A DNA stretch of 49,339 nt from a virus: positions 1-49,339 of IMG/VR virus record IMGVR_UViG_3300032236_001558; one strand, given 5' to 3'. The translations under genes and the position numbers were made by a program. Below are positions 39,437 to 44,043 of this stretch, piece by piece. The first letter of the stretch is position 1. Each line of letters opens with the position of its first letter. A model generated the notes under the pieces. That model ran no database searches and had not been told where the DNA came from. It saw nothing but the letters and a program-made list of their open reading frames with translations.

Positions 39437-39446
39437 GATATATAAG
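39437..39446 (+). promoter_or_regulatory. GATATATAAG box before the plus-strand operon
   Basis: The plus-strand decamer GATATATAAG lies three bases before the ATG at 39450. It is the only copy I placed on the plus strand, and it starts the single plus-strand multi-gene operon. Confidence 0.4.
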
Positions 39447-39449
39447 AAA

Positions 39450-40265
39450 ATGGGAAAAGTTTTAAATTTTAAAGGATTTTTAAATGAAGGTGCATTCGGA
39501 TCATTAAGCGCATTTGTGTTTGTTCCGGTTGATAAAAACTTCAAATCTTTGGATACAGATATACCAAATTCAAAATTATCTTTGCCTTCTCAGAGAAGCA
39601 ATTCGGGGGTGGCTGGATATCTGGTGGTTCCAGCAACAGTTGAAACCAACGAATTAATGAAAAGTCCATATATGATGGGAGGAAAATATGGTGTTTCCGG
39701 ACATATTAAATATACAAAATCCGCTCTTAATGATGGAATAATAGTTATGAATGGTGGAGACGAATTCACAACAGGTTCAGCAACTGGTGTAGCATCAGTC
39801 ACTGCTAACGTTCCTGGATTTGGACAAAATGCAGCATATTATTTCAAATCGGGAAATGCATTGATCCTAGAGGAATTGATGAAGAAGGAAGGATGGGACG
39901 AAGAAACTATTGGGGATATCAAGGGAAGAAAAATAGGGAATGGATTTCCTTCTAATACAACACTGACATATCTGGCATTTGGAGGAATAGAAGAGGCTGC
40001 TAAACTAATTAAAGAATTATTTGCAGCAAGTTCAGAAGACATTGGATTAAAATTTGAAAATCCTGAAGTTGCCAAAAATTACGATTCCACAGATTTTTTA
40101 TTAAAAATGTTTTCAAATAATCCTGCGGGATTCGTAGAATTAAATTTCTCAGAGGGAACATTTGAAAAAATATCAGCATTAGCAAAAGAAACAGGAACCG
40201 AGGAGGTTTCAAAAACAATAGACAATCTTAGCGATTTAAAATCGTCAGGATTTTTTGAAGATTAA
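39450..40265 (+). CDS. Unknown protein with capsid-targeting-like leader, first gene of the MoxR-VWA operon
   Basis: This 271-residue protein starts at the ATG at 39450 (MGKVLNFKGFLNEG). The leader MGKVLNFKGFLNE followed by Gly fits the T4 prohead-protease site (L/I)-x-E|(A/G). The rest is Gly/Ala/Ser-rich near the N terminus, with a beta-type region 'SGHIKYTKSALNDGIIVMNG' and a helical C-terminal half ('EEAAKLIKELFAASSEDIGL'). I recognise no family. It lies 11 bases before the ATPase gene and has the same leader type as the next two genes. It could be an internal head protein or a substrate of the MoxR-VWA pair. Confidence 0.72.
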   Translation: MGKVLNFKGFLNEGAFGSLSAFVFVPVDKNFKSLDTDIPNSKLSLPSQRSNSGVAGYLVVPATVETNELMKSPYMMGGKYGVSGHIKYTKSALNDGIIVMNGGDEFTTGSATGVASVTANVPGFGQNAAYYFKSGNALILEELMKKEGWDEETIGDIKGRKIGNGFPSNTTLTYLAFGGIEEAAKLIKELFAASSEDIGLKFENPEVAKNYDSTDFLLKMFSNNPAGFVELNFSEGTFEKISALAKETGTEEVSKTIDNLSDLKSSGFFED

Positions 40266-40276
40266 AAAACAATTAA

Positions 40277-41767
40277 ATGAAAAGAATACAGGATTTTAAA
40301 ACATTTACTGGAGTTAATGAAGCTAACATTTTTTCCAAAGGAGCTGAAGCTGTTAAAAAAGCAGGAAGCTGGTTAATGAATTTAATAAAAATTCAAGCAA
40401 AAAATGAAATTCCTGTAAGGGATAAGAAGTATAATCCTGAATCAGAAAGCTTTGACGATCAAGCAACCCCTGAGGCATTTATTAAAATACATCTTCCCGA
40501 AGGATCAAAAGGAGAAGATTATAAATTCACAAGAAAATTTGAAAACGAAATGAGTGAGTCAGATCCAGCTTGGAAAATAGCACAAAAGACTCAAGATCCT
40601 GAAATAGATGATGTCAGTGCTCCTGAACTTAAAAAAGAATTAGCATACCATTTTAAAAATCCGGAATCAGGAAGACCCCTTTTGATCTGGGGAGCTCCTG
40701 GAATAGGCAAGACTTCTATTGTAAAATCATTTGGTTTAGAGGATATGGGAGTTCCTGTAATAGAAGTGATTCTTAGTCTAATGGAACCAACGGATGTAGC
40801 AGGATTACCTGGTACAGAAGCTGATAAAAAATATGGTGATGTTAAAAGATCAGTAAACTATCTTCCTATGATATGGCCTTTAGATAATGGTCCAGAGGGT
40901 AAAGGAGGAATTATATTTCTTGATGAAATAAACAGAGCACATCCATCAGTGCAAGCTGCAATGCTTAAAGTTGTATTGGATAGAGAAATTGCAGGCGCTA
41001 ATTATAAAATACCTAGCAAATGGTTAATACTTGCTGCTGCAAATAGACCGGAAGACGAACCGGGCGGATTAATCAGACCAATGAGTTTTGCACTTGCGAA
41101 CAGATTTGCACAAGTAAATCTTATTTCAGATCCTTCAAGCTGGACAGGATGGGCAAGAGGAAAGGGATTAAGCGATGATGTTGTTTCGTTTGTTGAATTA
41201 ATGCAGGAGTATTTCTACATGATGCCAGGAACATTAAGTTCATATGATACAACAATGGGTGTTACCCCTAGAGCATGGGATTATGCAGCGAAAGAATATC
41301 AAGATAGAAAAGAAGAAGCAGAAGCAAAAGGTACACAATTAAGTGAATTAGAAATTTCAAAAATATTCAATAAGCATTTAGGGAAAAAAGTATCCTCTGT
41401 TATCACAGACTTTTTGGAAACCACAAAAGTTTGGCCTATCAATAGAATAACTAAGGTATTCACAGATCCTTCCGATCCTACAATACAATTACCAATGTCA
41501 TCATCGGGAAAATATGATTTAAGAAAATCGTATGCTGTTATGTACATGATTTCAAAGTATAATGCAGGACAAACATTAACCAAAGATGAATTTAGCAATT
41601 TTATTACATATCTAACAGCTTTAGATTCTGGAGAAATCGCAATGAGCGGTTTAAATATGATCAAAAGAACTCACCCAGAGGTTAAAAATTATTTAGGAGA
41701 TACTTCTCTTGAAAAATACGTAACTCCATTTGTTACTAAATATAAGGGTTTCATGAAGGAAATCTAA
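40277..41767 (+). CDS. MoxR-type AAA+ ATPase (CobS-like), with capsid-targeting-like leader
   Basis: MoxR-family AAA+ ATPases remodel or activate partner proteins together with VWA-domain proteins. This 496-residue protein has Walker A 'GAPGIGKTS' at 139-147, Walker B 'IIFLDE' at 212-217 with 'INRAHP' after it, sensor 1 'LILAAANRPED' (Asn256) and an arginine-finger region 'ALANRFAQV' (Arg276). The N terminus 'MKRIQDFKTFTGVNEAN' resembles the leaders of both neighbours. The first 130 residues have no clear domain. It is followed one base after its stop by the VWA gene, which suggests coupled synthesis of a two-component machine. Confidence 0.88.
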   Translation: MKRIQDFKTFTGVNEANIFSKGAEAVKKAGSWLMNLIKIQAKNEIPVRDKKYNPESESFDDQATPEAFIKIHLPEGSKGEDYKFTRKFENEMSESDPAWKIAQKTQDPEIDDVSAPELKKELAYHFKNPESGRPLLIWGAPGIGKTSIVKSFGLEDMGVPVIEVILSLMEPTDVAGLPGTEADKKYGDVKRSVNYLPMIWPLDNGPEGKGGIIFLDEINRAHPSVQAAMLKVVLDREIAGANYKIPSKWLILAAANRPEDEPGGLIRPMSFALANRFAQVNLISDPSSWTGWARGKGLSDDVVSFVELMQEYFYMMPGTLSSYDTTMGVTPRAWDYAAKEYQDRKEEAEAKGTQLSELEISKIFNKHLGKKVSSVITDFLETTKVWPINRITKVFTDPSDPTIQLPMSSSGKYDLRKSYAVMYMISKYNAGQTLTKDEFSNFITYLTALDSGEIAMSGLNMIKRTHPEVKNYLGDTSLEKYVTPFVTKYKGFMKEI

Positions 41768-41768
41768 T

Positions 41769-43400
41769 ATGAAAAGATTAAGAAATTTTAAGGAGTATCA
41801 ATTACTGAAAGAGAATTTTTCTCAATATGGAATGACACAGGAAAATTACGAAAAATCCATAATGAGGGTAAAAAGATGCATTTCTAAGATTCTAATGAAA
41901 GGAGGGTTTTTCGGAAACGTGCTATCTGAAATACCGGTAGCAGTTTCTAAAGAGTGCAAGTTTTTCTCTACTGACGGAACTGTTTTTATATTTAATCCTG
42001 AAAACATTTTAGGAATGAGCGATGATGAAGTTATTTGGGCGATCAATCAAGGAATTATACATCTCGCTCTGCAGCACTTCGATAGAAAAAAAGACAAGGA
42101 TGAATCAATCTGGAATCAAGCTTGTGATATAGCTGCAGAACCATATTTAGAAGGTATAGGAAAATCAGCTCTTCCTCTTAAATATAAGGATCCTAAATTC
42201 AACGGAAAATCTTCAGAAGAGATATACTCGGAATTAGAAAAATCTGGTGGCGACAGCTCCTATAAATCGTATTGCGATGTATTAGAGCCTGGTGAAATAA
42301 ACACAGAAAAAACATCGGAGACCATAATGGGTGATATTGATTCAATCAGAGGAGATTCGGATCATGAGTTTGATAAGAAAGAATTCAGTGATAAAAAAGG
42401 AGAACAAGAAGAAACAGGAGACAATCAAACACCAATGGGAGATGAAGATGATAAAAAAGGTGAAGATGATACACAGTCAGATAATGGAGCATCTGACGGA
42501 GGAGATAATGGGGAAGGTGAAGAATCTGACGGAACAGGAGAAGGTGAAGGAGAATCTGGAGAGGGTGAGGGGAAAGAAGGAAAGGGTCAAAAAGGAAAAG
42601 ACGGTAAACCAACAGATAAAGAAGGAAGTACAGGTAATGAATGGAATAAAGGATCAGAGGAAGATAAAAAGGATTGGAACGAAAAAATAGAAAAAACTGA
42701 ACCTGTAAGTAAAAAAGATATTTCTAAAAAAATACAGGAGATAACAGAAAGAGCTGCTAATAAAGGAACGGGGGGTGGCGGAGTTTCACCAGCATTAAGA
42801 AAATTTATAGAAGACCTTGTCAATCCACAGATTGATTGGAGGAAGATACTTCAAAGATATGTTTCGGAAGCAGATGAAGATCCAACAATGTACAAAATAC
42901 CAAACAGAAGGTATGCATCAAGGGACATATATCTTCCGGGATTGAAAGGTAAAGAAGAAGGATTTGGAACAGTAGTTATTGCTGTTGATACGTCAGGAAG
43001 TATAGGACAAGACGAATACAATACATTCTTAGCAGAATCAAGAAGCGTATTAAAGACATTCCAACCGAAGGAAATATATATTATTTACTGTAGCGATGGT
43101 ATGGAACCACCTTCTGGCGGGATTGATAGATTAGCATCTGCAGCTCAGCCATTAGATAAATCCAAACAAATGTCTACAGGAGGTAACGATGGAGGATTTG
43201 ATCCCCCTATTAAGTGGGTAGAGCAAAATCTAATCAAGAAAGGTAAAGACTTAGCTTGTATGATATATTTCACTGATGGAGGTGCAAATGATCCAGAGAA
43301 ACCAAAATGGCACAGAAAGATGATATGGGCAATGACCACTAATCACAAAATGCCTTTCGGTAAACATGTAAATGTTCCGATTAATAAATTAAAAAAATAA
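41769..43400 (+). CDS. VWA-domain protein with metallopeptidase-like N-terminal domain (partner of the MoxR ATPase)
   Basis: This 543-residue protein has a leader 'MKRLRNFKEYQLLKEN'. An N-terminal domain follows, similar to the putative metallopeptidase domain of VWA-like proteins ('GMSDDEVIWAINQGIIHLAL', then Gln-His), but the HExxH zinc motif is replaced by H98-LALQ-H103, so it is probably not catalytic. An acidic Gly/Glu/Lys linker spans about residues 215-300. The VWA domain starts near 400 with MIDAS 'DTSGS' at 407-411 and 'IYFTDGGANDP' later. Such proteins bind client proteins and are moved by MoxR ATPases. Its function in a phage is unknown. Confidence 0.85.
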   Translation: MKRLRNFKEYQLLKENFSQYGMTQENYEKSIMRVKRCISKILMKGGFFGNVLSEIPVAVSKECKFFSTDGTVFIFNPENILGMSDDEVIWAINQGIIHLALQHFDRKKDKDESIWNQACDIAAEPYLEGIGKSALPLKYKDPKFNGKSSEEIYSELEKSGGDSSYKSYCDVLEPGEINTEKTSETIMGDIDSIRGDSDHEFDKKEFSDKKGEQEETGDNQTPMGDEDDKKGEDDTQSDNGASDGGDNGEGEESDGTGEGEGESGEGEGKEGKGQKGKDGKPTDKEGSTGNEWNKGSEEDKKDWNEKIEKTEPVSKKDISKKIQEITERAANKGTGGGGVSPALRKFIEDLVNPQIDWRKILQRYVSEADEDPTMYKIPNRRYASRDIYLPGLKGKEEGFGTVVIAVDTSGSIGQDEYNTFLAESRSVLKTFQPKEIYIIYCSDGMEPPSGGIDRLASAAQPLDKSKQMSTGGNDGGFDPPIKWVEQNLIKKGKDLACMIYFTDGGANDPEKPKWHRKMIWAMTTNHKMPFGKHVNVPINKLKK

Positions 43401-43404
43401 GAGT

Positions 43405-44043
43405 ATGAAAAAAATTCTCTCAATGATCATGATTATGATCGTATTTGCATTCGTTGCAAAAGCACAAGATGTTGTAATTTTAAAACACACGAATTACACA
43501 TCGCATTTTTCGAAATCGAAAAAATATCCAGTCCTTGTTGAATGGTGGGCAACAAAAGCAAAGGTTGCATGCGAAAAACCTTTAGCTAGAAAGGATAATT
43601 TCAAACCGGATCCATTATTACCAACAGAAACAGATCTTGGTGATGATTATAAAGGGAGCGGAACAGATAGAGGTCATATGATGCCCGCTGCTGACAATCT
43701 TTGTCAAACACCAGCAGTTCAGGATGAGTGTTTTTATTTTTCTAATATGGCTGCACAATACCATTCATTAAATGCAGGAGATTGGAAATCTTTAGAAACA
43801 TTAGAAAGACAATTGGCAACAGAAAAGGATTCAGTTCACGTTTGGTGTGGAAATATAGGAGAAGCTAAAAGAGTTGGAAAAGTAGCAGTACCTACTGAAT
43901 GTTGGAAGGTTATTTATGTTGTTAAAACTAAAGAATGGATGGCTTATACTTTTAAAAACACAACAGACAAACCATCAGGTTTAAACACCCACAAAGTAAC
44001 AGTTGCTGACATTACTAAATTAACTGGTCTTAAGTTTAACTAA
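43405..44043 (+). CDS. Secreted DNA/RNA non-specific endonuclease (NucA/EndoG-like)
   Basis: This 212-residue protein has a Sec signal peptide (MKKILSMIMIMIVFAFVAKA, cleavage after Ala20, then QDVV). The bba-Me nuclease motif 'D88-R-G-H91-MMPA' is followed by 'YFSNMAAQYHSLNAGDWKSL' with the metal Asn residues N114 and N123 and Glu131, the normal arrangement of Serratia/NucA nucleases. The gene starts four bases after the VWA stop, so it is the last gene of the plus-strand operon, and a terminator follows. An exported nuclease could degrade extracellular or competing phage DNA, or act on periplasmic DNA during entry. Confidence 0.9.
   Translation: MKKILSMIMIMIVFAFVAKAQDVVILKHTNYTSHFSKSKKYPVLVEWWATKAKVACEKPLARKDNFKPDPLLPTETDLGDDYKGSGTDRGHMMPAADNLCQTPAVQDECFYFSNMAAQYHSLNAGDWKSLETLERQLATEKDSVHVWCGNIGEAKRVGKVAVPTECWKVIYVVKTKEWMAYTFKNTTDKPSGLNTHKVTVADITKLTGLKFN

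Follow-up and report, generated by a model that had tools for sequence, protein, structure and literature searches.

The stretch of DNA analysed here (the window) is the 49,339-base virus record IMGVR_UViG_3300032236_001558, and the subject is a cassette of three plus-strand genes in it, which encode, in this order, a protein without family assignment (gene 1), a MoxR-type AAA+ ATPase and a VWA protein, each starting with a short leader that resembles the capsid-targeting sequence of phage T4 (Table 1). All three open reading frames (ORFs) are intact, and the ATPase and VWA genes lie one base apart. The initial annotation had placed three consecutive genes with shared leaders at 39,450 to 41,818; the reading frames, the N-termini and the gene starts were confirmed, and the similarity is far above chance, with the end of the interval corrected to 43,400, where the third gene stops. 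The window represents part of a T4-like phage genome, with counterparts of gp17, gp18, gp19, and gp2/gp4-type DNA end and head-completion proteins as well as of the late sigma factor gp55, UvsX, a gp41-type helicase, gp46, and gp47. Comparisons were made with the near-complete relatives G001 (IMGVR_UViG_3300032331_003609, 244,850 bases; gene 1 90% identical to that of the window) and G004 (IMGVR_UViG_3300008110_010000), with G006 (IMGVR_UViG_3300044638_008123; ~71% identity), and with LR756500, a 462-kb huge phage whose ATPase and VWA proteins are ~30% identical to those of the window.

Table 1. Features of the three-gene cassette and its upstream region (window coordinates)
Feature	Position	Strand	Remarks
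GATATATA box, candidate late (virion-gene) promoter element	39437..39444	+	only plus-strand copy in the window; five bases before the gene 1 ATG
Gene 1	39450..40265	+	271 aa; no Pfam or PHROG match; only in close relatives
Leader of gene 1, MGKVLNFKGFLNE	39450..39488	+	predicted cut before Gly14; T4 spacing Y4-x-x-F7-I8-x-E10
MoxR-type AAA+ ATPase	40277..41767	+	496 aa; AAA_5, AAA_3, phrog_1297
Leader of ATPase, MKRIQDFKTFTGVNE	40277..40321	+	predicted cut before Ala16
Walker A of ATPase, GAPGIGKT	40691..40714	+	from alignment with homologues; intact
Walker B of ATPase, IIFLDE	40910..40927	+	from alignment with homologues; intact
VWA protein with N-terminal DUF2201_N (metallopeptidase-like) domain	41769..43400	+	543 aa; PF13203, PF09967, phrog_1314
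Leader of VWA protein, MKRLRNFKEYQLLKE	41769..41813	+	predicted cut before Asn16
Degenerate metallopeptidase motif QGIIH (HExxH in homologues)	42048..42062	+	from alignment
Metal ion-dependent adhesion site (MIDAS) motif of VWA domain, DTSGS	42987..43001	+	from alignment

The T4 leader reads MKTYQEFIAE, and amber-suppressor mutagenesis of the ten-residue leader of IPIII assigned targeting mainly to residues 4 and 7 and processing to residues 8 and 10 (PMC9026906). The gene 1 leader carries F7, F10, L11, and E13 at these four key positions of IPIII with identical spacing. In the ATPase and VWA leaders, the aromatic pair (F7/F10 and F7/Y10, respectively; F7/F10 in gene 1) is followed by a spacer that is two residues longer, and the predicted cut sites are LNE↓G, VNE↓A, and LKE↓N for gene 1, ATPase, and VWA protein (the arrow marks the cut). 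With 13, 15, and 15 residues, the leaders fall within the T4-type range of about 10–20, and leaderless VWA homologues align from about residue 22 of the window protein.

The recurrence of the leader was determined using a regular expression (basic start, hydrophobic residue, two aromatics three apart, then Glu) with internal methionines serving as control. This fixed pattern and its control were chosen because a de novo motif search of G001 (few random starts) did not recover the leader; de novo searching did yield KYIKEYEEF at the N-termini of LR756500 and K-L--LYEA in PAU. In the window, the expression matched only the three cassette genes of the 45 called (0.2 expected). The relatives gave 13 matches among 257 genes in G001 (1.5 expected, p = 4e-6), 17 among 221 in G004 (0.95 expected, p = 1e-9), and 39 among 617 in LR756500 (3.8 expected, p = 2e-14), i.e., a 9- to 18-fold excess. 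In both G001 and G004, three of the matches are the orthologues of the cassette genes, and the excess persists without them. As genes were called with a simple caller, the counts are approximate, and as the pools include orthologues and some paralogues, the p-values are indicative. The other proteins with the same leader for which the initial annotation suggested a search were thus found in all three relatives, and while its assignment of an ATPase, a VWA protein and a third protein stood, these are no special cargo trio and belong to a genome-wide tagged set. The excess was absent from T4 (whole genome), PAU, PTm1, MA9V-2, MaF61, Lak-A2, and XaC1. A closely similar expression gave four matches in the T4 genome, including its two MKTYQEFIAEA proteins, which were taken to be IPII and IPIII, judging by their size and sequence rather than by annotation. 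Separately, a 54-residue minus-strand ORF of T4 (NC_000866, 18966–19130) starting with MKTFKEFIKEDMVAG fits the leader pattern.

When the cores of five genomes were pooled, hydrophobic-x-Glu followed 62 of 84 N-terminal cores compared to 8 of 36 internal ones (p = 1.7e-7), and the exact T4 spacing was present in 36 of the N-terminal cores. Position P3 was Leu, Ile, or Val in 60 of the 62 sites, and P1' was Ala, Ser, Asn, or Gly in 37 of them. Between orthologues, residues were identical at 21/24 aromatic positions and 31/60 other core positions; these pairs were preselected for the core, which conditions the aromatic class and not the identity.

Many unrelated proteins of LR756500 carry a nearly invariant leader (MKYIKEYEEFILEA, MKYILEYEEFLLEA). 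The cultured phage PAU (JQ362498) has its own leader type, MKTLSKLYEAKLNEA, on about 20 proteins (9332–201592), among which gp152 carries the annotation 'scaffolding' and gp154 the annotation 'internal capsid protein'. Short leaders (e.g., MKTFTYFINEA) occur in MA9V-2, a Chryseobacterium phage that is likewise cultured. Leader carriers include leucine-rich repeat, nucleotidyltransferase-like, and Fib_succ_major proteins. The leucine-rich-repeat-like leader proteins of LR756500 (13446 by Pfam; 14298, 180972, 198758, and 331856 by eye) are an unusual class of possible head cargo. In G001, one leader protein (173750–174331) has a very acidic, Glu-rich tail recalling the T4 core protein gp67, and two others (105170–105862 and 174625–175401) contain long hydrophobic, glycine-rich stretches; the latter two products could be membrane-active at ejection.

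A gp21-type protease (PF03420, Peptidase_S77) is present in G001, G004, LR756500, PAU, PTm1, Lak-A2, and MA9V-2. In G001 (161872–163953), it opens a 693-residue protein whose remainder is scaffold; a protease-scaffold fusion of this type is also annotated in PTm1, and that of MA9V-2 comprises 1,207 residues. The G001 scaffold contains 14 tandem units of the form YxxY[LIV]xE, mostly YSEYLAEN-like and 14 residues apart, and a stricter form of this unit is absent elsewhere in the G001 proteome. The unit resembles both the leader core and YQEFIAEA of T4 in form, hydrophobic-x-Glu followed by Ala, Ser, Gly, or Asn is enriched three to eight times in the protease-scaffold fusions, and the major capsid protein of MA9V-2 has WSEFINEA near its start. 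Judged from these likenesses, the leader would be a copy of the scaffold's repeat unit.

Among heptamers upstream of genes that come first in their operon, ATATATA/GATATAT showed the strongest enrichment in both G001 and G004, where it precedes virion genes (sheath, tube, and protease) and most leader genes. The box was selected from all operon starts and not from the leader genes; it was found at 11/16 leader genes versus 36/241 others in G001 (p = 6e-6) and at 16/21 versus 27/200 in G004 (p = 3e-9). In the window, where gene 1 is the only one of the three to be first in an operon, the association between box and leader was not significant. The T4 late promoter has the sequence TATAAATA, and from this likeness and its position we infer that the GATATATA box acts as a late promoter.

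Conservation of the leader was assessed on 152 reciprocal best hits between G001 and G004, of which 7 had the leader on both proteins, 141 on neither, and 4 were discordant (by eye, owing to gene splitting, start choice, or the pattern threshold). One orthologous pair (G001 173750 and G004 141411) aligns only over residues 1–23, with 87% identity, as should be expected of a cargo address on a fast-changing protein. LR756500 has kept the leader on its VWA protein (MKYIKSYENFIFE↓N) and, in looser form, on its ATPase. Second ATPases are tagged in G004 and G005 (MPSIKKFDQYVNE↓D and MQKIKNFNTFINE↓D), with the VWA protein split there; in G004 and its near relatives, the first of the two resulting ORFs has 355, 323, or 411 residues depending on the contig, a variation that probably arises at a low-complexity stretch. 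In G006, gene 1 is missing and the ATPase and VWA protein of this cassette have lost their leaders, while a box upstream is kept. A second set lies ~6 kb away, in which both an ATPase (MRRVSNFETFIKDRQQVNRNTVNE↓G) and a peptidase half with HEIMH are tagged.

Hundreds of phage records contain MoxR-VWA genes; BLAST at the threshold applied detected no homologue of the pair in PAU, PTm1, MaF61, MA9V-2, or T4. The VWA proteins of the window, G001, and cassette 1 of G006 read QGIIH where an active DUF2201_N domain has the HExxH zinc motif, and peptidase activity is therefore unlikely for the window protein. HExxH is intact in LR756500, in the second sets of G001 and G004, and in the tagged set of G006, and the phage group likely holds one pseudo-peptidase and one active VWA copy. 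Gene 1 returned zero matches among phage records even at an E-value of 1, and its AlphaFold model (five sequences) had a mean predicted local distance difference test (pLDDT) score of 47 and was too poor for use. In the window, a divergent thymidylate synthase-like gene lies upstream of the cassette, and directly downstream (43405–44043) follows a DNA/RNA non-specific endonuclease that appears to have a signal peptide.

We consider it probable that a T4-type capsid-targeting leader, removed by the prohead protease, puts the MoxR-VWA pair and the gene 1 product inside the head. The tagged proteins would be made together with the head proteins in late infection, and the aromatic-x-x-aromatic part of the leader would dock each of them into the prohead core, which would consist of the protease-scaffold fusion, in which a similar motif is repeated many times. 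Next, the gp21-type protease would cut after the Glu of each predicted site, and the mature ATPase, VWA, and gene 1 products would remain in the head until they pass, along with the DNA, into the next host. There, the MoxR-VWA pair would remodel a complex of host or phage origin ahead of all phage gene expression. A capsid-targeting leader cut by the prohead protease, as put forward in the initial annotation, is favoured because of the T4 spacing, the protease in relatives, the recurrence, the conservation, the promoter box, and the scaffold repeat; docking into the core appears very probable, and cleavage after Glu nearly as much so. Packaging of the tagged proteins is likely from their sequences, and injection with the DNA is suggested only by analogy with T4. 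Retention in the head and delivery with the DNA are reasonably probable, and the early remodelling of a target, the weakest step, is doubtful. Taken as a whole, the proposal that large T4-like phages (probably of Bacteroidota) pre-load a MoxR-VWA machine plus tens of scaffold-unit-tagged proteins, which act before phage gene expression, is a tentative one that may or may not hold.

Several observations weigh against packaged and delivered cargo. The gp21-like protease, anticipated in the initial annotation and encoded by G001, G004, and LR756500, was not recognised on the 49-kb window fragment, and in PTm1 and Lak-A2, which do possess the protease, leaders are not clearly in excess. Homologues of the pair in XaC1, SonariX, Callisto, S-TIM66, PhAPEC7, and Vibrio phage 2.275.O are leaderless and begin at or near the folded domain, even in XaC1 and SonariX, which encode a gp21-type protease; the tag is therefore modular. 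Together with the leader loss in G006, this makes packaging probably unnecessary for the core activity. Such leaderless homologues had been named beforehand as grounds for giving up the packaging idea; they do exist in other phage groups and in G006, and were judged not to overturn it, G006 having a tagged second set. Delivery would moreover need a MoxR protein to pass the portal channel and to assemble afterwards. As to virion data, those in the MA9V-1 paper are bands from sodium dodecyl sulfate polyacrylamide gel electrophoresis only, and no mass spectrometry was found in the MA9V-2 paper.

The main competing explanation takes the pair for an assembly factor, i.e., the leader would dock MoxR-VWA in the prohead core for building or maturing the head, with no useful delivery to the host. 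A virion-assembly role has been proposed for the jumbo-phage MoxR-vWA pair, citing archaeal virus precedent (Iyer et al. 2021, PMC7824862). There is also the late-type box of the cassette, and the untagged G006 copy, which keeps its late-type box, favours assembly over cargo somewhat. Nevertheless, we regard this explanation as less likely, as the leucine-rich repeat, nucleotidyltransferase-like, and Fib_succ_major carriers are unlike assembly factors, and PAU, PTm1, MA9V-2, and T4 have this type of protease without a detected pair (MaF61 is without the pair, too).

The leader could instead be an address to the membrane, the host polymerase, or a replication compartment, its likeness to T4 being only apparent. 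It is indeed a short basic-aromatic peptide, and some carriers look hydrophobic (G001 105170 and 174625), but the P3-P1-P1' pattern fits a protease site, the leader matches the scaffold repeats, its PAU version sits on two proteins whose annotations are those of a scaffold and an internal capsid protein, and carriers and virion genes have the same promoter box. Furthermore, the Pfam-scanned carriers of G001 had zero replication families and zero tail families above the cut-off (one phage tail lysozyme match was sub-threshold), and the single replication-type exception, a RecA-like protein (LR756500 245619), is without hydrophobic-x-Glu; such an address is hence improbable. Chance resemblance or simple paralogy of three neighbours is less probable by far. 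The motif is short and degenerate, with a background of about 1 to 5 matches per genome for a loose expression, but this is far exceeded in the three genomes with an excess, and the carriers are unrelated beyond the leader, as in the pair alike only at residues 1–23. Both simple forms were rejected based on the internal-methionine control, the reciprocal-hit comparison, and the counts of N-terminal versus internal cores.

Little is known of what giant phage heads contain, and as a rule it takes mass spectrometry of cultured phages to find out. If the capsid-targeting function of the leader is true, virion cargo would become readable from sequence alone, including that of uncultured huge phages, and the widespread phage MoxR-VWA AAA+ pair would be placed inside the virion. 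It would also suggest that cargo is recruited by mimicry of the repeat in a fused protease-scaffold. A limited literature search turned up no previous description of leaders of this kind in huge phages, which is weak evidence, and the polyvalent-protein paper leaves MoxR and vWA unmentioned. Of the undescribed cargo system presumed at the outset, the cargo, the number of carriers, and the relation to the scaffold appear to be new, whereas the kind of signal is already known from T4.

The closest known system is the capsid-targeting sequence of T4 IPI–IPIII and Alt (Mullaney and Black 1996, reviewed in PMC9026906 and PMC3012670), which is likewise a short N-terminal leader with an aromatic pair three apart and a hydrophobic-x-Glu site, carried by unrelated proteins in a genome with a gp21-type protease. 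In contrast to the handful of carriers in T4, there are up to about 40 here, the leaders are about three residues longer at the start and often have a variable spacer before the cut site, the protease is fused to a scaffold with a tandem similar motif, and an AAA+ machine is among the carriers. The pair itself corresponds to the jumbo-phage MoxR-vWA pair (Iyer et al. 2021, PMC7824862) and to N4 gp24/gp25-type genes in being adjacent and in having the same domains (phrog_1297/phrog_1314). Those known homologues that were examined begin with the folded domain, whereas both proteins here are tagged with a capsid-type leader, and the peptidase motif that is degenerate in the window sets its VWA protein apart from the jumbo-phage pair. 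In SPN3US-type giant phages (PMC5694885), the prohead protease likewise cleaves an N-terminal propeptide off inner head proteins, which are subsequently ejected; those propeptides are mostly longer than 100 residues, whereas the leaders described here have 13–15 residues and are T4-like in sequence.

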